63,732 nt of DNA, from assembly GCA_026399095.1 (NCBI GenBank), contig JAPLRP010000063.1:1-63732 (forward strand), written 5' to 3'. Shown in pieces: positions 2,103 through 31,459 of this stretch. Both the position numbers and the translations under genes were made by a program. The stretch is from Methylococcales bacterium (GTDB lineage: Bacteria; Pseudomonadota; Gammaproteobacteria; Methylococcales; Methylomonadaceae). Position 1 is the first letter of the stretch. The number at the start of each line of letters is the position of its first letter. The notes beneath the pieces were generated by a model that was given only the letters and a program-made list of their open reading frames with translations, was not told the origin of the DNA and did not search any database.

Positions 2103-3767
2103 TTAAGACAGTTTTTTGTATTTAAGTCTTTTGGGGTTATCCGCATCACTGCCTAAGCGGCGATGGCGATCGGCCTCATAATCTTCATAGTTGCCTTCAA
2201 ACCAAACCACTTGGCTGTCACCCTCAAAGGCGAGCATGTGTGTGGCAATTCTATCCAGAAACCAGCGATCATGCGAGATAACTACGGCGCAACCGGGGAA
2301 GGCAAGTAAAGCCTCTTCTAAGGCACGTAAGGTTTCAACATCTAAATCGTTAGTCGGTTCATCGAGTAACAAGACATTACCGCCGGTTTTAAGTAGTTTG
2401 GCTAAATGGACACGATTACGTTCACCACCTGATAAATCGCCAATACGTTTGCCTTGATCTGCACCTTTAAAATTAAAGCGTCCGACGTAGGCGCGTGACG
2501 GCGTTTCATATTTGCCGACGGTAATCATATCCAAGCCATCCGATATTTCTTCAAAGACGGTTTTCTTGGGATCCAGATCATCACGTAACTGATCGACATA
2601 AGCCAGTTGAACGGTTTGTCCTAAGGTTAAGGTACCTGAATCCGGTTGTTCAACACCTGCCATCATTCTAAACAAGGTTGTTTTGCCGGCACCGTTAGGG
2701 CCGATAATACCCACAATGCCACCGGGGGGTAATTTAAAGCTCAAGCCGTTGACCAATAATTTATCGCCAAAGGCTTTGTTAATGTTGTCGGCTTCAATAA
2801 CGACGTCGCCCAGACGGGGGCCGGGTGGTATATATATTTCTTGGGTTTCGTTACGTTTTTGTACATCTGATGACGACAGTTCGTCAAAGCGTGCCAATCG
2901 TGCTTTGCTTTTTGCATGCCGACCTTTTGGATTAGAGCGTACCCATTCCAATTCATCTTTCATGGCTTTTTGGCGTGAAGACTCTTGTTTTTCTTCTTGC
3001 AACAAACGGTTACTCTTTTGCTCTAACCAGCTAGAATAATTTCCTTCCCATGGAATGCCGGAGCCTCTGTCCAGTTCTAAAATCCAGCCTGCGACGTTAT
3101 CCAAGAAATAACGATCATGGGTGACGGCAACCACAGTGCCGGGATAATCGTGTAGGAAGCGTTCCAGCCATGCGACTGATTCTGCGTCTAAATGGTTGGT
3201 TGGTTCATCCAATAACAACATGTCGGGATTGGATAATAATAACCGGCATAAGGCAACACGGCGTTTTTCACCACCGGATAGTTTAGTGACATCGGCATCC
3301 CAATCGGGAAGGCGTAGGGCATCGGCTGCAACTTCCAATCTGCGCTCAAGATTATGACCATCACAAGCATTGATGATGTCTTCAAGTCGCGCTTGATCAA
3401 CAGCAAGTTTATCAAAGTCGGCATCAGGGTCTGCATAAGCCGCATAGACAGCGTCGAGTTGTGCCAAGGAGCTCTTAATTTCTGCGACAGCCTCTTCAAC
3501 ATTGCCACGCACTGTTTTAGTCGGGTCCAGTTGCGGTTCTTGTGGTAAGTAACCGATATGAATACCTTTTTGTGGAATAGCTTCGCCTTCGATTTCTTTA
3601 TCGATGCCGGCCATGATACGTAAAAGCGTTGATTTACCGGATCCGTTTAAACCTAATACGCCGATTTTTGCACCAGGAAAAAAAGACAGTGATATGTCTT
3701 TAAGTATGTATTTTTTGGGTGGAACAATTTTGCCGACCCGATTCATTGAATAAATGTATTGCGCCAT
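2103..3767 (-). CDS. ettA: Energy-dependent translational throttle protein EttA (ABC-F ATPase)
   Basis: EttA is a cytoplasmic ABC-F ATPase that binds the ribosomal E site and gates the first steps of elongation according to ATP/ADP level. The 554-residue protein has two ATP-binding cassettes and no membrane segment. Walker [10 protein letters not shown] is at 39-47, signature LSGGE at 163-167 and DEPTNHLD at 187-194. The second cassette has [14 protein letters not shown] and DEPTNDLD. A basic linker between the cassettes and the N-terminal [13 protein letters not shown] are typical of EttA, and the length matches the E. coli protein (555). It appears monocistronic, divergent from the transglycosylase gene. 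Confidence 0.96.
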
Positions 3768-14219: not shown

Positions 14220-15128
14220 ATGGAAAAACCATTCATTTTACACATGTTAACCACTGCTAAAAATTTAAGCCCATTTGATGTCAATATGGCTTTAGATGCG
14301 GGCTGGGTTTCTGCACTTCCTTATACCAATGTTGAAGCCAGTGAAGTTCAGGGGTTGGTGCAAGATGCTATTTTTTCCCGTAGTACAAAAAATTTAAAAC
14401 GTACCGGTATTTTTATTGGTGGCCGAGATACCAAGCAAGCAATGGATATGTTGAAATTGGCCAAGCGTTCCATGGTTCCACCCTTTGAAGTTTCTGTTTT
14501 TGCTGATCCGAGTGGCGCGTTTACTACAGCAGCCGGTATGGTAGCGGCTGTTGAACATGAGTTAATTACAAAATTCAATACCACATTGGCAGGAAAAAAC
14601 ATCCTCGCTTTGGGTGGTACCGGTCCGGTAGGGCAAGCTGCCGCAGTTATCTCTGCTCAAGCAGGAGCAAACGTCAGAATCATCGGCAGACAACTAGAAA
14701 AGGCACAGCTTATCGCCGATATGTGTAGCAATGAATTTGGTGACGGTAAAATCACTATCGCCGCTGGTGCAGATGCAGATAAAGCTGAGTACATTAAAAC
14801 GGCCGATGTAGTTTTTGCAACCGGCGCCGCAGGAATTGAATTGTTAAGTGCAGCACTTATTGCTTCCGCGCCGCAGCTTAAAGTTGCCGCTGATGTTAAT
14901 GCGGTTCCACCCGCAGGGATTGCCGGTGTTGATGCCTTTCATAATGGCACACCCATTGATGGTTCCAGCAGTGGTGCTGTGGGTATCGGCGCCTTGGCGA
15001 TTGGCAATATTAAATACCAAGCACAAAACCGTTTATTGAAAAAAATGATTAGCAGTGAAAAGCCCGTGTATTTGCATTTTGAACATGCGTTTGAAGTAGC
15101 CAGAGATTACATTAAGTCCAATATTTAG
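14220..15128 (+). CDS. mtdB: NAD(P)-dependent methylene-tetrahydromethanopterin dehydrogenase, copy 1
   Basis: MtdB oxidises methylene-H4MPT to methenyl-H4MPT in formaldehyde oxidation by methylotrophs. The 302-residue protein begins PFILHMLTTAK and then SPFDVNMALDAG, very close to known MtdB N-termini. It contains GIFIGGRD, FADPSGAFTTAAGM, the dinucleotide-binding GGTGPVGQAA and DVNAVPPAGIAG. These features separate it from the shorter NADP-specific MtdA. AGGAG lies just upstream. A paralogue follows after 46 bases. Confidence 0.93.
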   Translation: MEKPFILHMLTTAKNLSPFDVNMALDAGWVSALPYTNVEASEVQGLVQDAIFSRSTKNLKRTGIFIGGRDTKQAMDMLKLAKRSMVPPFEVSVFADPSGAFTTAAGMVAAVEHELITKFNTTLAGKNILALGGTGPVGQAAAVISAQAGANVRIIGRQLEKAQLIADMCSNEFGDGKITIAAGADADKAEYIKTADVVFATGAAGIELLSAALIASAPQLKVAADVNAVPPAGIAGVDAFHNGTPIDGSSSGAVGIGALAIGNIKYQAQNRLLKKMISSEKPVYLHFEHAFEVARDYIKSNI

Positions 15129-17096: not shown

Positions 17097-19808
17097 ATGA
17101 AAGCGACTATTCCAGTATTTCGTGTATTTCTGTTTTTAATGGCATTGTTTGTATTTACTGATGCATTGGCGCTTAGTGTCAATCCGAGTTCAGCAACAAT
17201 TAATGTTGGTAATAAAGTTAATATCGCTGTCACTAATGCTTCTTCTTCAACATCAAAGCCTGTAAGGGTTTCTACGAGTACCAATAATACGAGTGTAACT
17301 TACTTAAAATCAAGCTTTAGCAAAGGCACTGCAACTATAACTGGAATAGCTCCAGGAAAATCTGTCGTAACTGTCAGAGATAATAAAACGTCCAAAAAAA
17401 TTAATGTCACGATTTACGCGACTAGTATACAAAACCAAACTATTAGCTTCGGTTCAATACCGAGCCTTATTTATAATGGAACAGCTACAGTTACTGCGAC
17501 AGCAACGTCAGGCCTTACTCCGGTTATTTTTAGTAGCTTAACCAATACTATTTGTTCAATCAATGGTACTACTGTTACCGGACTTGCTGGTGGTATATGT
17601 ACCATAGCAGCAAATCAAGCAGGTAATGCAAATTATAGTGCCGCCCCACAAGTCACTAAAGATATTATCGTAGAAAAAATCTTACAAACTATTGTCTTGG
17701 GTCCACCACTGAGTCTTATTAATGGGGCAACAGGTACAGTTTCTGCGACTTCAAGTTCAGCATTGATGGTATCTTACTCATCGATTACACTAAATATATG
17801 TACCATTAATGGTGCAGTTGTCAAGGCTATTTCTACTGGAAAATGTACTATCGCAGTAAATCAGGCTGGTAACAATAATTATAATGCTGCACCTGAAGTG
17901 ACTCAGGATATTACTGTAACCGCTTCGCCTATTTTGACTGTGTTACCTGCAACTGTTTCGTTATCCATTGGTGCAACAACTCCTATTGCGGTATCAAATG
18001 CAGTCGGAGCAGTAACCGTGACATCTTCAAGTAACGCTATTGCAACTGCTACTTTTGCTAACAATATTATTACTGTGAAAGGTGTCAGTGCGGGCTCAGC
18101 AACCTTAACAATTAAAGACACTAAATCAACTTTGACTGTACCGGTTACAGTGCAGGCAGCACCAGTAGCCGGCAACTATACTTTGCTTGCCTGGAATGAT
18201 TTGGGTATGCATTGTATGGATGGTATGGATTTCTCGGTTTTCACTATCTTGCCTCCTTACAACACCTTACATGCACAGTTGAAAAATAAGTCGGGTAAGT
18301 TGATTACGACTAACGTTAAGCTGACTTACGAAGCTGTTCCTGACTCTACTGGATCCATGAATAGCAGCAGTTATGATAAAACCAATTTTTGGGATAACGT
18401 GGGTTTATTGTTTGGTCTTAATCCTGCCAAGGATGAGGGTGTAAATTTGGATGGTCTTGCATCAGGCACTCCAGCTCCGGGCAGTAAAGTTCCAAGTTTA
18501 ATTCCTACTGATATGATTTATAATACTGATTTTAAATGGTTTGAAGCGGAAGGTATTCCGATGACGCCATTTCCGGATAACCCATTAATTGATAATAATG
18601 GTAATCCGGTTAAGAATTTCTATCCTACTGTTAAAGTGGTCGCCAGAGATCTGAGCAATAATATACTGGCAGAAACTACAACCGTATTGCCGGTCAGTGA
18701 TGAAATGACTTGTAAGGGCTGTCATGCCTCAACAACTATAAGTAATGCTGCAAAACCAACTGCCGGCTGGGTAGTGGATTTGGATAAGGAAAAAGACTGG
18801 AAAAGAAATATTTTACGATTGCATGACGAAAAACAATTGACCACGCCACTTTATCAGGCTGCATTAGCGGCATCAAACTTTGATCCTAAAGGCTTGCTAG
18901 CAACAGCGAATTCTTTGAAGCCAGTATTATGTGTTAAATGTCATGCCAGTAACGCATACTTTGACAAGCTAAACAAGAAAACAGTAATGTCTGGTTTCGC
19001 TGATATTAGACCGTTCACCCAAGTCTTACATTCAAAACATGCTAACGTGATTGATCCGGCAACTAATTTGCCACTGGATACGAGTGGTGATCGACAAGCT
19101 TGTTATAATTGCCATCCGGGCTCTGTTACACAATGTTTACGTGGGCCTATGAGTAAGGCTAAAGACATTTCAGGGAATAATGCAGTTAGCTGTCAAAGTT
19201 GCCATGGTAATTTGACTGCAGTGGGTAGTAAGGCTCGTCAAGGCTGGTTTAATGAACCTGTTTGTGAGTCTTGCCATAACAATAGTAAGCGCACTACAAC
19301 AGCTACTGATGTGAATGGATTGCCTAAAATATCAACGGATCATACTTTTGCTACCAATGCTAATACACCAGTCCCCGGATTAAATCTATATCGTTTCAGT
19401 ACCGGTCATGGTGGTTTGCAATGTGAAGCTTGTCATGGAGCAACTCATGCGGAATATCCATCAACTCATGCAGATGACAATACTCAAAGTATTGCCGTTC
19501 AAGGGCATACTGGACCAGTTGCAGAGTGTACTGCTTGTCATAAAACGGTACCAACTACCGTCAATGGTGGGCCGCATGGTATGCACACAAGAGGAAATGC
19601 TTGGGTGAGTTCACATCAAGGAGCCAATAAAAATGGTAGTGCAACAACACCTAGTTGCGCTTATTGTCACGGGACTACCAGTGCAGGTACGCCACTGAGT
19701 GCTATAAAAGTTGCAAAAACCATTAATGCAGGAAACTTTGGTACTAAAAACTGGCCAGTTGGTTATCAAGTAAGCTGTTTTAGTTGTCACAACGGCCCAA
19801 ATCCTTAG
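17097..19808 (+). CDS. Secreted nine-heme cytochrome c with Ig-like repeats
   Basis: The 903-residue protein has a signal peptide (cleavage near Ala-Leu-Ala). About 340 residues of bacterial Ig-like beta modules follow: two BIG2-like units at either end and two central repeats, each with a paired Cys and an NQAGN.NY.AAP motif. A unique middle region (about 360-530, starting NYTLLAWNDLGMHCMDG) follows. The C-terminal third contains nine CxxCH heme sites, at about residues 538, 612, 669, 699, 723, 776, 811, 853 and 893. GAGGGG precedes the ATG. It probably acts in the periplasm or outside the cell in electron transfer or redox storage. No porin partner is adjacent. The ccm operon starts 375 bases downstream. 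Confidence 0.88.
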   Translation: MKATIPVFRVFLFLMALFVFTDALALSVNPSSATINVGNKVNIAVTNASSSTSKPVRVSTSTNNTSVTYLKSSFSKGTATITGIAPGKSVVTVRDNKTSKKINVTIYATSIQNQTISFGSIPSLIYNGTATVTATATSGLTPVIFSSLTNTICSINGTTVTGLAGGICTIAANQAGNANYSAAPQVTKDIIVEKILQTIVLGPPLSLINGATGTVSATSSSALMVSYSSITLNICTINGAVVKAISTGKCTIAVNQAGNNNYNAAPEVTQDITVTASPILTVLPATVSLSIGATTPIAVSNAVGAVTVTSSSNAIATATFANNIITVKGVSAGSATLTIKDTKSTLTVPVTVQAAPVAGNYTLLAWNDLGMHCMDGMDFSVFTILPPYNTLHAQLKNKSGKLITTNVKLTYEAVPDSTGSMNSSSYDKTNFWDNVGLLFGLNPAKDEGVNLDGLASGTPAPGSKVPSLIPTDMIYNTDFKWFEAEGIPMTPFPDNPLIDNNGNPVKNFYPTVKVVARDLSNNILAETTTVLPVSDEMTCKGCHASTTISNAAKPTAGWVVDLDKEKDWKRNILRLHDEKQLTTPLYQAALAASNFDPKGLLATANSLKPVLCVKCHASNAYFDKLNKKTVMSGFADIRPFTQVLHSKHANVIDPATNLPLDTSGDRQACYNCHPGSVTQCLRGPMSKAKDISGNNAVSCQSCHGNLTAVGSKARQGWFNEPVCESCHNNSKRTTTATDVNGLPKISTDHTFATNANTPVPGLNLYRFSTGHGGLQCEACHGATHAEYPSTHADDNTQSIAVQGHTGPVAECTACHKTVPTTVNGGPHGMHTRGNAWVSSHQGANKNGSATTPSCAYCHGTTSAGTPLSAIKVAKTINAGNFGTKNWPVGYQVSCFSCHNGPNP

Positions 19809-27403: not shown

Positions 27404-28813
27404 ATGGCGTTGCAAATTTTTCGTACCAAACCAATAGCGTCACATAACGACAACAGTGACGGACTTAAACGTTGCTTATCTAAATGGGATTTAGCTTTTT
27501 TGGGTGTTGGCGCCATTATAGGCACCGGAATATTTGTATTGACAGGTATCGCCGCAGCCACGCAAGCCGGTCCAGCTATTGTCGTATCTTTTATTATTGC
27601 TGGCTTTGCCTGTGGCTTTGCCGCGTTATCTTATGCAGAATTGTCATCGGCTGTTGGGGGTTGCGGTAGTGCTTATGGCTATAGCTATGCCGCTTTTGGT
27701 GAATTAATTGCATTTATTATCGGTTGGGATTTACTCCTTGAATACGGCATTTCAGTCGCCGCAGTGGCTAATGGATGGTCAGGTTATTTTAATAATGCAC
27801 TCACTGCCATTGGCATGCCATTACCCGAATCCCTTACCAAAGCGCCGATACTCGGTGGGATTATAAATTTACCCGCTGCCACTATCATCCTAATGCTGAT
27901 GGGTTTGTTGATAATGGGCGTAAAACATAGCGCTAAAGCCAATAATGCCATGGTCATCGTTAAACTCATTACCATTAGTCTATTTATAGGCATTGCTGTT
28001 TTTAATGTTCATCCAGAAAATTGGCATCCTTTCATGCCTTTTGGTTGGTTTCAAACCTTACCTGATGGGAAAACAACCGGTGTATTTGCAGGTGCTTCGC
28101 TGGTCTTTTTTGCTTATGTTGGCTTTGATGCAGTATCAACAGCCGCTGAAGAAGCTAAAGATCCTCAGCGTGGCTTGCCTTTTGGTATTGTTACTTCATT
28201 GGTCTTTTGCACTGTTATTTATATACTCGTGTCAGGACTGCTGACGGGTGTCGTTAATTATTCAGAACTTAATGTCTCTTCACCGGTTGCTCATGCCTTA
28301 AACTTGCTGGGTTATAATTGGGGGGCAGCGGTTATTTCTACAGGTGTAATCGCCGGCCTGACGACCGTCATGTTGGTACTGTATTATGGTTTGACGCGCA
28401 TTATTTTTGCTATGTCACGAGATGGCTTATTATCACCTTTTTTTAGCAAAGTTAATAAAACCACACAAACACCAATTCGGGTCATCGTGCTATGTGGTTT
28501 TATTATGTCAATGATAGCCGGTTTTGTGCCTTTAGGTGAACTGGCAGAACTAGTCAATATCGGTACCTTGGCGGCCTTTGTATTGGTCTGTTTTGGAGTG
28601 ATTGTCTTACGTATCACCCAACCCAATCTTAAACGCCCGTTTCGTAGTCCGTTTAGCCCTTTATTTCCGGTACTTGGTATGCTATCTTGCGGTGCACTCA
28701 TGGCTTTTTTACCAGGCATTACTTGGTTGCGCTTTATTATCTGGTTGATAATTGGTTTGATTGTGTACTTTGTTTATTCAATGGAAAACAGCAAACTGGC
28801 TGACTATAAGTGA
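27404..28813 (+). CDS. APC-superfamily amino-acid permease
   Basis: The 469-residue inner-membrane protein has 12 predicted spans and the APC hallmark LGVGAIIGTGIFVLTGIAAA in span 1. Span 3 carries Gly-Ser-Ala-Tyr-Gly-Tyr-Ser-Tyr, and FFAYVGFDAVSTAAEEAKDP lies in the span 6 region. This arrangement matches the cationic amino-acid transporter subgroup (YfnA/CAT-like). The substrate is not deducible. It stands 60 bases after slyX and is followed by the 21-bp repeat array. Confidence 0.88.
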   Translation: MALQIFRTKPIASHNDNSDGLKRCLSKWDLAFLGVGAIIGTGIFVLTGIAAATQAGPAIVVSFIIAGFACGFAALSYAELSSAVGGCGSAYGYSYAAFGELIAFIIGWDLLLEYGISVAAVANGWSGYFNNALTAIGMPLPESLTKAPILGGIINLPAATIILMLMGLLIMGVKHSAKANNAMVIVKLITISLFIGIAVFNVHPENWHPFMPFGWFQTLPDGKTTGVFAGASLVFFAYVGFDAVSTAAEEAKDPQRGLPFGIVTSLVFCTVIYILVSGLLTGVVNYSELNVSSPVAHALNLLGYNWGAAVISTGVIAGLTTVMLVLYYGLTRIIFAMSRDGLLSPFFSKVNKTTQTPIRVIVLCGFIMSMIAGFVPLGELAELVNIGTLAAFVLVCFGVIVLRITQPNLKRPFRSPFSPLFPVLGMLSCGALMAFLPGITWLRFIIWLIIGLIVYFVYSMENSKLADYK

Positions 28814-28963
28814 TTAAGTTTTAATTTAATTAACTTTGAGTCATATTACAATTTTTAACCTAAAATAATATCAATAGCATCAAACTGAATTTTTTCATAA
28901 AAATGTATTAACTCTATCGCCAGTAAATGCATTTTTTAAAGATAAACAGTGGTTTTTAAAAAA
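28814..28963. other. Leading part of the 708-bp permease-acs intergenic region
   Basis: AT-rich sequence with no gene, RNA or clear terminator seen between the permease stop and the first repeat unit. Confidence 0.4.
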
Positions 28964-29278
28964 AGCGCTCAGTTTTCATTGTTGAGTATCTATCAATGAT
29001 TATTTGGCATCCATCTATGATGATAGAGCGCTCATCAGGACTATATGAGTCCTCATTTACTATAACAGAGCGCTCTATCATTATTGAGTAGCGCTCAGTT
29101 AAAATGAATAAAACTCTATCATTAGACTAGAATGCTCTAGACTAATAATAGAAGCCCTCATTATTAATCCATCAGCGCTCATTCATGATTAATGAGGCCT
29201 CTTTAAGGATACATGAGCGCTCTTCTAGAATTGATTAGTACTCAAAAATCATTCATAAGTTCTATAAACCGATTGCAA
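28964..29278. repeat. Phased array of fifteen 21-bp units with an AGCGCTC core
   Basis: Units begin at 28964, 28985, 29006, 29027, 29048, 29069, 29090, 29111, 29131, 29153, 29174, 29195, 29216, 29237 and 29258. All are 21 bp except one adjacent 20+22 pair, which keeps the phase. The first seven bases follow AGCGCTC (six exact copies) with variants such as AGTCCTC, AGCCCTC, AGGCCTC and AGTACTC. The remaining 14 bases are AT-rich and not conserved. Cores often stay palindromic (AGCGCT, AGGCCT, AGTACT). A perfect 13-bp inverted repeat joins 29021-29033 to 29068-29080. Stops occur in the frames I translated, so it is not coding. The function is unknown. Confidence 0.85.
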
Positions 29279-29521
29279 AAATATAGGTAGCCAAAATAAG
29301 GTTACGTAATAAGTTAAATTCTGGTGCAGAAATGAGATTGAGTTTAAAGGCTAATTACTATAAACCATAATGTTATCTGCATTTTAATAACATAAAACAA
29401 AACATTAGCCCTCGAATAATTGACAGTATTACAAGTTATTCCCCGCAATAATATTTCAACACTGATAGTACCTAAAACATTTATAATTAAGCATCGTTTT
29501 TAGGCATCCTCAGGATTATAA
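29279..29521. other. Upstream region of acs
   Basis: This AT-rich stretch between the repeat array and acs should hold the acs promoter and start site, but I see no convincing -35/-10 pair. The ribosome site is CTCAGGAT, about 6 bases before the ATG. Confidence 0.4.
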
Positions 29522-31459
29522 ATGTCAGACAGTAAAGTTTACGAAGTAAAACCCACTATTGCAGCGAAAGCGCATATTAATAGTAAAACTTATCAAACAC
29601 TTTACGACGCTTCAATTAATCAGCCTGAGGCTTTTTGGGCAGACCAAGCCGAACAATTTCTCGACTGGAGCCAGCCTTGGACCAAGGTAATGGATTATGA
29701 CTATCCTACAGGTTATATTCGCTGGTTTGAAGACGGCACACTTAATGTAAGCGTTAATTGCATTGATCGGCATCTTGAAGCGCGTTGTGATCAAGTAGCT
29801 ATTATCTGGGAAGGCGATAATCCTGCCAAAGAAAAAAAAATCACCTATAAGCAATTACATATCGAAGTTTGTCAGTTTGCTAATGTATTAAAAGCACAAG
29901 GCGTTACAAAAGGTGATCGGGTTTGTATTTATTTACCCATGATCAGCGAAGCAGCTACGGTCCTGTTGGCTTGCACGCGCATTGGTGCAGTGCATTCAGT
30001 TGTATTTGGCGGTTTTTCTGCTGAAGCCTTAAAAGATCGCATTCTGGATTCAGAATGCCATTATGTGGTTTGTGCTGATGAAGGTTATCGGGGTGGTAAG
30101 ACGCTGCCCATTAAAGCTAATGTCGATTTAGCCGCTGAAGGCTGTCCAGATCTTAAAAAAATTATTGTCATCAAAAATACCGGAAATCCTGTTGCTTGGT
30201 ATGAGTCTCGTGATATCTGGTATCACCAAGCCATGTCACAAGCCTCAGAAGATTGTCCGGCAGAAGCCATGGACGCTGAAGATCCTTTATTTATTTTGTA
30301 TACCTCAGGCTCAACCGGTAAGCCTAAAGGCGTTGTCCATACCACGGGCGGTTATTTGTTGTATGCCGCAATGACACACAAGTATGTCTTTGACTATCAG
30401 GAAGGCGATGTTTATTGGTGTACGGCTGATATAGGCTGGATTACCGGTCATTCTTATATCATCTATGGACCATTGTGTAATGGCGCTACTACTTTAATGT
30501 TTGAAGGTATCCCCACTTATCCGGAAGCCGATCGTTTTTGGCGAGTGATTGATAAACATCAGGTTAACATTTTTTATACGGCACCTACTGCTATTCGGGC
30601 TTTAATGGCTCATGGTAATGACCCAGTCACTTGCACAGACCGCAGTAGTTTGCGAATTTTAGGCAGTGTCGGTGAGCCGATCAATCCGGAAGCATGGGAA
30701 TGGTATTATCATGTGGTCGGTAAAGGACGTTGCCCAGTGGTTGATACGTGGTGGCAAACTGAAACAGGTGGTATTTTAATTACGCCTTTACCAGGCGCAA
30801 CTGCCTTAAAACCGGGTTCGGCGACTTTGCCTTTTTTTGGTATCAAACCGGAAATTATGGATAACCAAGGCGTTATTATGGACGGTGTAGCCGAAGGCAT
30901 TTTAGTCATCAGTCGTCCTTGGCCGGGGCAAGCGAGGACCATTTATGGTGATCATCAGCGTTTTATCGATACGTATTTTAAAAACTATCCGGGCTATTAT
31001 TTTGCCGGTGATGGTGCGCGTCGTGATGAGGATGGTTATTTCTGGATAACCGGTCGTATTGATGATGTCATTAATGTTTCGGGTCATCGTATGGGTACTG
31101 CAGAAATTGAAAGTGCTTTAGTATTGCACGAGTCCGTTGCCGAAGCCGCTGTTGTGGGTTATCCGCATGACATAAAAGGGCAGGGTATTTATGCGTATGT
31201 GACGTTAAATAATGGAACAGAGCCTTCTGAAACCTTGCGAAAAGAGCTGGTTGATTTAGTCAGGAAAGAAATTGGCGCCATAGCCAATCCGGATATTATT
31301 CAATGGGCTCCGGGCTTGCCAAAAACCCGTTCTGGTAAAATCATGCGGCGCATACTACGTAAAGTGGCCGCTAATGAGTTGGATAGTTTAGGTGATACTT
31401 CTACTTTGGCTGATCCATCTGTTGTTGATGATATTATTAATCATCGGAGTAATAAATAA
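29522..31459 (+). CDS. acs: Acetyl-CoA synthetase
   Basis: Acs activates acetate to acetyl-CoA through acetyl-AMP. The 645-residue protein has the adenylate-forming motif [11 protein letters not shown] near residue 260, the [10 protein letters not shown] and [12 protein letters not shown] blocks, WWQTETGG and the C-terminal TRSGKIMRR. The Lys of that last motif (near 605) is the usual acetylation-control site. It is monocistronic, with a 708-base upstream gap that contains the 21-bp repeat array. In a methanotroph it may recover acetate made in fermentation or scavenged. Confidence 0.97.

Follow-up and report, generated by a model that had tools for sequence, protein, structure and literature searches.

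A phased 21-bp dyad array upstream of a putative acs gene in a Methylococcales bacterium resembles the leaders of a dispersed orphan gene family

The window, a 63,732-nucleotide stretch of a Methylococcales bacterium genome, contains an array of fifteen 21-bp dyad-symmetric units at positions 28964–29278 (no strand assigned). Arrays of this period and symmetry are dispersed in the same genome and its relatives, and in several phyla they stand 5′ of one multicopy family of genes for proteins of about 227 amino acids. We favour, tentatively, the explanation that the window array is a solo leader copy of a dispersed two-part module, comprising the phased dyad array and the ~227-aa orphan gene, and that it would act as a platform for a putative dimeric protein controlling the next gene.

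A fit that was given no core places the array at 28965–29279, with six steps of 21 bp followed by steps of 20, 21 and 22 bp and five more of 21 bp. Its score is 211, against a maximum of 63 in ten shuffles, confirming the fifteen units, the 21-bp period and the single 20 + 22 pair that a preliminary description had read from the letters alone. The autocorrelation proposed there as a check is highest at lag 21 among lags 2–149 (identity 0.514). The seven-base core said to be shared by all units is present, but the claim was too strong: AGCGCTC is exact in 6 of the 15 units and AGNNCT is found in 11, with deviating units at 28985, 29006, 29110 and 29131. Three AGNNCTC motifs spaced by 13–15 bp are matched six times in the genome, always within this array, and the reversed pattern has no match in the genome. 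The spacers had been described as unconserved, a view that does not hold, as the 21-bp profile of the array shows dyad symmetry over its full length (0.90, compared with 0.40 after column permutation). The longest near-perfect inverted repeat in the array (29014–29087, no strand assigned) has arms at 29014–29033 and 29068–29087 that are 34 nt apart; the pairing noted earlier between 29021–29033 and 29068–29080 is present and extends to these 20-nt arms at 90% complementarity.

An open reading frame spanning the array, which would have pointed to a coding minisatellite, was not found: no listed ORF of at least 60 aa crosses it and, read in its three forward frames, it contains 12, 6 and 11 stops, so that a coding minisatellite is rejected. 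Outside the window, 19 of 57 arrays have a stop-free frame. A CRISPR array is likewise rejected, given a degenerate core of 7–8 bases (exact in 6 of 15 units) and spacers of 13–14 bases in periodic register. An Rfam search of the window returned no match at the gathering score. Weaker 21-bp periodic fits (scores ~96–112) at 3255–3506, 14711–14946 and 17827–18225 lie within long ORFs of the window and probably reflect coding periodicity.

The neighbours of the array, taken from the ORF list, are a 469-aa ORF (27404–28813, forward strand), which we take to be amino-acid transporter-like, and a 645-aa ORF (29522–31459, forward strand) that the preliminary description called acs. Searching window positions 28400–30400 in 35 genomes of the genus gave similar acs loci from 29 relatives, with 297–1000 bp of upstream sequence each. 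None of the 29 has a GAG-core array upstream of acs, and a core-free scan of the same regions found one array, of 18 units at −882 to −503 (L073:619–997, on contig C34 of genome G008). That array has a different unit sequence without similarity to the window array, and a PDDEXK_2 fragment lies between it and acs. The link to acs is thus not conserved, and we reject a conserved acs regulatory element. In the nine loci that carry both on one stretch, transporter and acs are about 61–476 bp apart; the window gap is 708 bp. The array in the window appears to be an addition specific to its lineage.

Two features were not in the preliminary description: arrays usually lie 5′ of a dispersed gene family, and the window array is one of at least five in its own genome. 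The others are on contig C32, where the array adjoins an intact gene, on C85, next to a broken gene, on C27, 5′ of a distant relative, and on C18 (L032:6906–7100), where it is shortened and fused to a fragment that recurs elsewhere. This fragment is also seen on C63, C4, C38 and C44 (L084, L085), and in L084 it forms the terminal part of an ORF rich in repeats, presumably RTX-like. The left flank of the window array (28858–28958, forward strand) is a possible homologue of the distal leader of the gene-linked copy on C32 (L033; alignment score 51; p = 0.006, uncorrected over 12 comparisons; p = 0.08 against L032). Because of this resemblance the window leader may point toward acs, an orientation that is suggestive only. 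A promoter scan found no site in 28858–28958, and right-flank matches of the window leader were not counted, as they lie directly before start codons. A profile search of the six frames of the window for the ~227-aa gene gave a best E of 3.4, and none of the listed own-genome matches to the family is on the window contig (C19).

The support to look for had been named as arrays in relatives that share period and core but occupy other sites, and such arrays exist. When up to two mismatches are allowed, a set of three GAGNNCTC cores spaced by 21 bp is present in 11 of the 35 genus genomes, the window's own included, and the reversed control in none of the 35. A looser core pattern matched 5 of 41 genomes, its reversed control occurring once in each of three; two of its loci (L007, L008) were dropped as chance matches or other repeats. 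The scanner reported an array in every one of 20 stretches retrieved around core matches; L051, an open-frame 84-bp repeat, is not counted as a member. Several arrays are mutually homologous at unrelated sites, in either orientation, and an alignment of seven homologous copies shows a common middle stretch and, in most, a right end containing GATGC. L040 and L042 are a single locus in two genomes, differing by about six units as read from the alignment. In two genomes, related arrays (L037:6607–7012 and L038:4181–4481) precede one and the same ~420-aa gene by ~240–250 bp, the genes on their other side being different, and the array at L048:5842–6286 (G041:C66) has a higher-order repeat of ~104 bp, or five units.

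The ~227-aa gene is found in 6 of the 20 array stretches, with the array directly 5′ in five and ~2.7 kb away in the sixth (L044). Neither Pfam, NCBIfam nor PHROG gives a convincing match to the family, and PADLOC, searched with four members for anti-phage defence systems, returned none. At E ≤ 0.001 the family is present in 30 of the 35 genomes of the genus, and a single genome has up to 17 matches. At E ≤ 1e-8 it is present in 26 of 151 genomes from the order and, in a sample of the phylum, in 1 of 398 (the window's own genome). A protein search of genomes gave 115 loci, of which the best 80 comprise 57 from Methylococcales, 8 from Zoogloea or 'Proteobacteria bacterium', 10 from Verrucomicrobia, 1 from Bacteroidetes and 4 from other bacteria. 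Among the 74 of these 80 with more than 640 bp upstream (L154, L165, L176, L181, L182 and L186 being too short), the best lag between 12 and 63 in the upstream region is 21 (47 loci), 42 (16) or 63 (5) in 68, which are not 68 independent events as many of the loci are related; another lag is best in L128, L149, L169, L189, L194 and L196. The 21-bp peak is absent downstream (72 regions), far upstream (59) and far downstream (61), and the mean z at lag 21 is 6.5 upstream, 1.8 in the gene, 0.8–0.9 in the far flanks and 0.6 downstream.

Arrays are not a trait of any multicopy gene: upstream of PDDEXK_2 genes, a multicopy control from the same genomes, the best lag is 21, 42 or 63 in only 2 of 28 regions, and the fit exceeds 100 in one (L283). 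Core-free arrays stand before PDDEXK_2 genes or fragments at L073 and L283 (G050:C573). Among distant relatives of ~206 aa from other genera, four of six testable loci carry an array (L248, L250, L251 and L252, not L254 or L255); L249 and L253 are outside this test, the script having picked another ORF. Leader arrays 5′ of the gene are thus found in Methylococcales, Zoogloea, Verrucomicrobia and one Bacteroidetes. A conserved neighbour gene was considered and rejected, as the commonest non-overlapping neighbour cluster occurs in 10 of 80 loci and at varying positions.

In none of the 21 pairs compared is the gene's divergence at third codon positions lower than that at first and second positions, indicating that the gene product is constrained. 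An AlphaFold2 model from 54 sequences (pLDDT 88.7, pTM 0.54) has N-terminal helices and a C-terminal β-domain. The best Foldseek matches mostly cover the β-domain; among them are FN3 domains from receptors, from enzymes and from tail proteins of phages, so the product is predicted to combine helices with an FN3-like domain. The model shows no recognised DNA-binding fold.

The 56 arrays with a fit of at least 120 have a median of 17.5 units (range 7–29), and their steps are 832 of 21, 65 of 20 and 25 of 22 bp (mean 20.96). The profile is dyad-symmetric at p < 0.05 in 54 of 63 arrays, that of the window included. Rotating 57 profiles onto one another gives CTCnGCAAnnnTTGCnGAG followed by a YR step, with a mean correlation of 0.60 to the shared unit against 0.37–0.40 in five column-permuted runs. 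This unit belongs mainly to Methylococcales, although it also fits loci from elsewhere such as L180, L192 and L197; Zoogloea and many Verrucomicrobia correlate at ~0.3–0.55, near the permuted level, and other subfamilies have AACGTT or CACRTG at the heart of the unit. Thus period and symmetry are general and the letters are not. Spacers are able to carry a second dyad, CAAnnnTTG, which the preliminary description missed.

Selection on a spacing of two helical turns had been proposed at the outset, and several observations agree with it. When related arrays are compared, the least divergent positions are the A and T that flank the four central bases (30/553 against 666/5275); the p-value of this comparison overstates independence, since several pairs share loci. 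Steps of 22 bp lie near steps of 20 bp in 14 of 26 cases (null 6.3, p = 0.001), although the fitting procedure itself could create some such pairs. Indels between related arrays are of 1 bp (9), 4 bp (1), 20–22 bp (9) and 41–42 bp (4). Strict phase along the array is not supported, however, as 25 of 57 arrays have no net drift and the other 32 do drift, which indicates that phase is held locally and not across the whole array.

Array and gene are dispersed together as a module of ~1.4 kb, and gene-less arrays, such as that of the window, also occur. Paralogues at different sites (for example L129, L130, L133, L158, L159 and L164) align only from about −715 to about +690 around the start codon. 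L146 and L147 come from two genomes and share 99% identity over 1474 bp; the identity ends just past a terminator-like hairpin, and the flanks are unrelated. Elsewhere in G006 an array-only copy of 569 bp, 95.8% identical to the L146 leader (−588 to −20), lies between ORFs of 469 and 139 aa. In L121 and L126 the gene is nearly identical (0–4%) and the array differs by 27%, so modules can be mosaic. Palindromes of the form TTATCC(A/C)CAG..TGTGGATAA, which we take to be paired DnaA boxes, are seen near 6 of 80 module loci (L122, L133, L136, L140, L142 and L146), in L146 on both sides (−761 and +764 from the gene start).

These confined alignments, the unrelated flanks, the array-only copy, the broken copies in the window genome and the patchy spread through genus, order and phylum would all suit a selfish mobile element moved in trans by a putative enzyme, with the array as its recognition or recombination sequence and gene-less arrays as decay products. 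We consider this account unlikely. The module has no transposase, inspection by eye shows neither terminal inverted repeat nor target duplication at the L146/L147 ends, no empty site was recovered, and searches found no relatives of L132 in plasmids, L172 in phages, L250 in either, or A2 and L250 in viral contigs. A mobile element is also not needed to account for constraint on the core and on the gene body. The mobile-element and platform models are compatible, and the module may be selfish, may be a host gene under regulation, or may combine the two.

The preliminary description had allowed for either a multi-site binding platform or a structured transcript. An RNA leader, in which transcribed units would pair with one another and the resulting fold would regulate expression or undergo processing, strikes us as improbable. 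In its favour, seven related loci of one subfamily have a promoter-like TTGC..-N16-TATAGT near the far edge of the array, from which the array would be transcribed; promoter-like sites near the array start were counted, without a shuffled control, in 12 of 56 loci. Folding energies are low: the window array gives z of −3.9 and −5.4 on the two strands against dinucleotide shuffles, and arrays average −2.3 on both strands against column shuffles. However, antisense folds equal sense, and strong folding on both strands is expected of any palindrome-rich DNA. Against unit-order shuffles the mean z is −0.8 to −1.2, and a subset (10 and 13 of 57 arrays) falls below −2, to which the window array (−0.8, −0.4) does not belong. 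Dyad-related positions about either axis show no covariation within units in 41 arrays (observed 0.464 and 0.448, expected 0.461 and 0.451), which speaks for DNA half-sites and against unit hairpins, and the period, as we understand it, is that of B-DNA. One giant hairpin is also rejected, because the inverted stretches vary in centre and span. We read the dyad units as DNA half-sites, with pairing between units possible in a subset of arrays; of the original platform proposal, the DNA-site side is favoured and strict whole-array phase is not.

A neutral minisatellite spread by tandem duplication without selection is disfavoured and very improbable: units are gained and lost in ~21-bp steps and the array outpaces third codon positions in some pairs (0.27 against 0.04 in L121/L126, 0.39 against 0.21 in L172/L177), but in several phyla one gene family is preceded by arrays of this period whose letters differ, and core positions are constrained.

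Of the systems already described, the iteron arrays at plasmid and phage origins consist of direct repeats about two helical turns apart that bind protein cooperatively. The arrays described here share this spacing, cooperative binding being a proposal in our case, but they are chromosomal, often have at least 15 dyad-symmetric units and adjoin a gene without a Rep-like match. As the neighbouring family lacks a weighty match in Pfam, NCBIfam or PHROG and its model lacks a recognised DNA-binding fold, an iteron array of a replicon is not supported. SlmA sites have the consensus GTGAGTACTCAC, whose heart, GAGYRCTC, is the core of the arrays in this genus; those sites are single, whereas here they form arrays, with AACGTT or CACRTG hearts in other subfamilies, and the GTGAGTACTCAC dodecamer occurs nowhere in the window, excluding an SlmA binding site. 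MITE and foldback elements are dispersed, lack a transposase and contain inverted repeats, as does this module, which differs in being linked to a constrained gene and in that ends or target duplications were not found. The TAACTGA direct repeats of Beggiatoaceae, in the portion of the account available to us, are likewise intergenic sets before genes, with no function assigned to them and a patchy distribution across phyla, but consist of a fixed heptamer in sets of two to six copies, unlike the 21-bp dyad unit with drifting letters seen here (PMC4679880). Within the portions of the literature that our search returned, no such array leader is described, and a 200–600-bp leader of palindromic sites spaced by two turns, preceding one multicopy family in several phyla, looks to be undescribed.

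In the platform model that we favour, each 21-bp unit (approximately CTCnGCAAnnnTTGCnGAG-YR in Methylococcales) would be a symmetric site for a putative dimeric DNA-binding protein. Two-turn spacing would place dimers on one face of the DNA, so that they could bind cooperatively along the leader, and the bound leader would set transcription of the next gene, which in the window may now be acs. The dimeric protein, its cooperativity and its control of transcription are what we infer from the pattern of the arrays. A more elaborate form, which we put forward with greater doubt, is a phylum-crossing module with a portable phased-palindrome leader that is coated as a filament by the putative dimeric protein and governs a multicopy FN3-domain orphan family, and that can detach and be captured by genes such as acs.

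One spacing rule, 21 bp and mostly dyad-symmetric, is kept before one gene family across phyla while the letters change. Such retention is a testable sign of an unrecognised DNA–protein (or RNA) assembly. It also draws attention to a protein family that has no name as yet and reaches 17 copies in a genome. Copies of the leader alone would offer a means of rewiring host genes.
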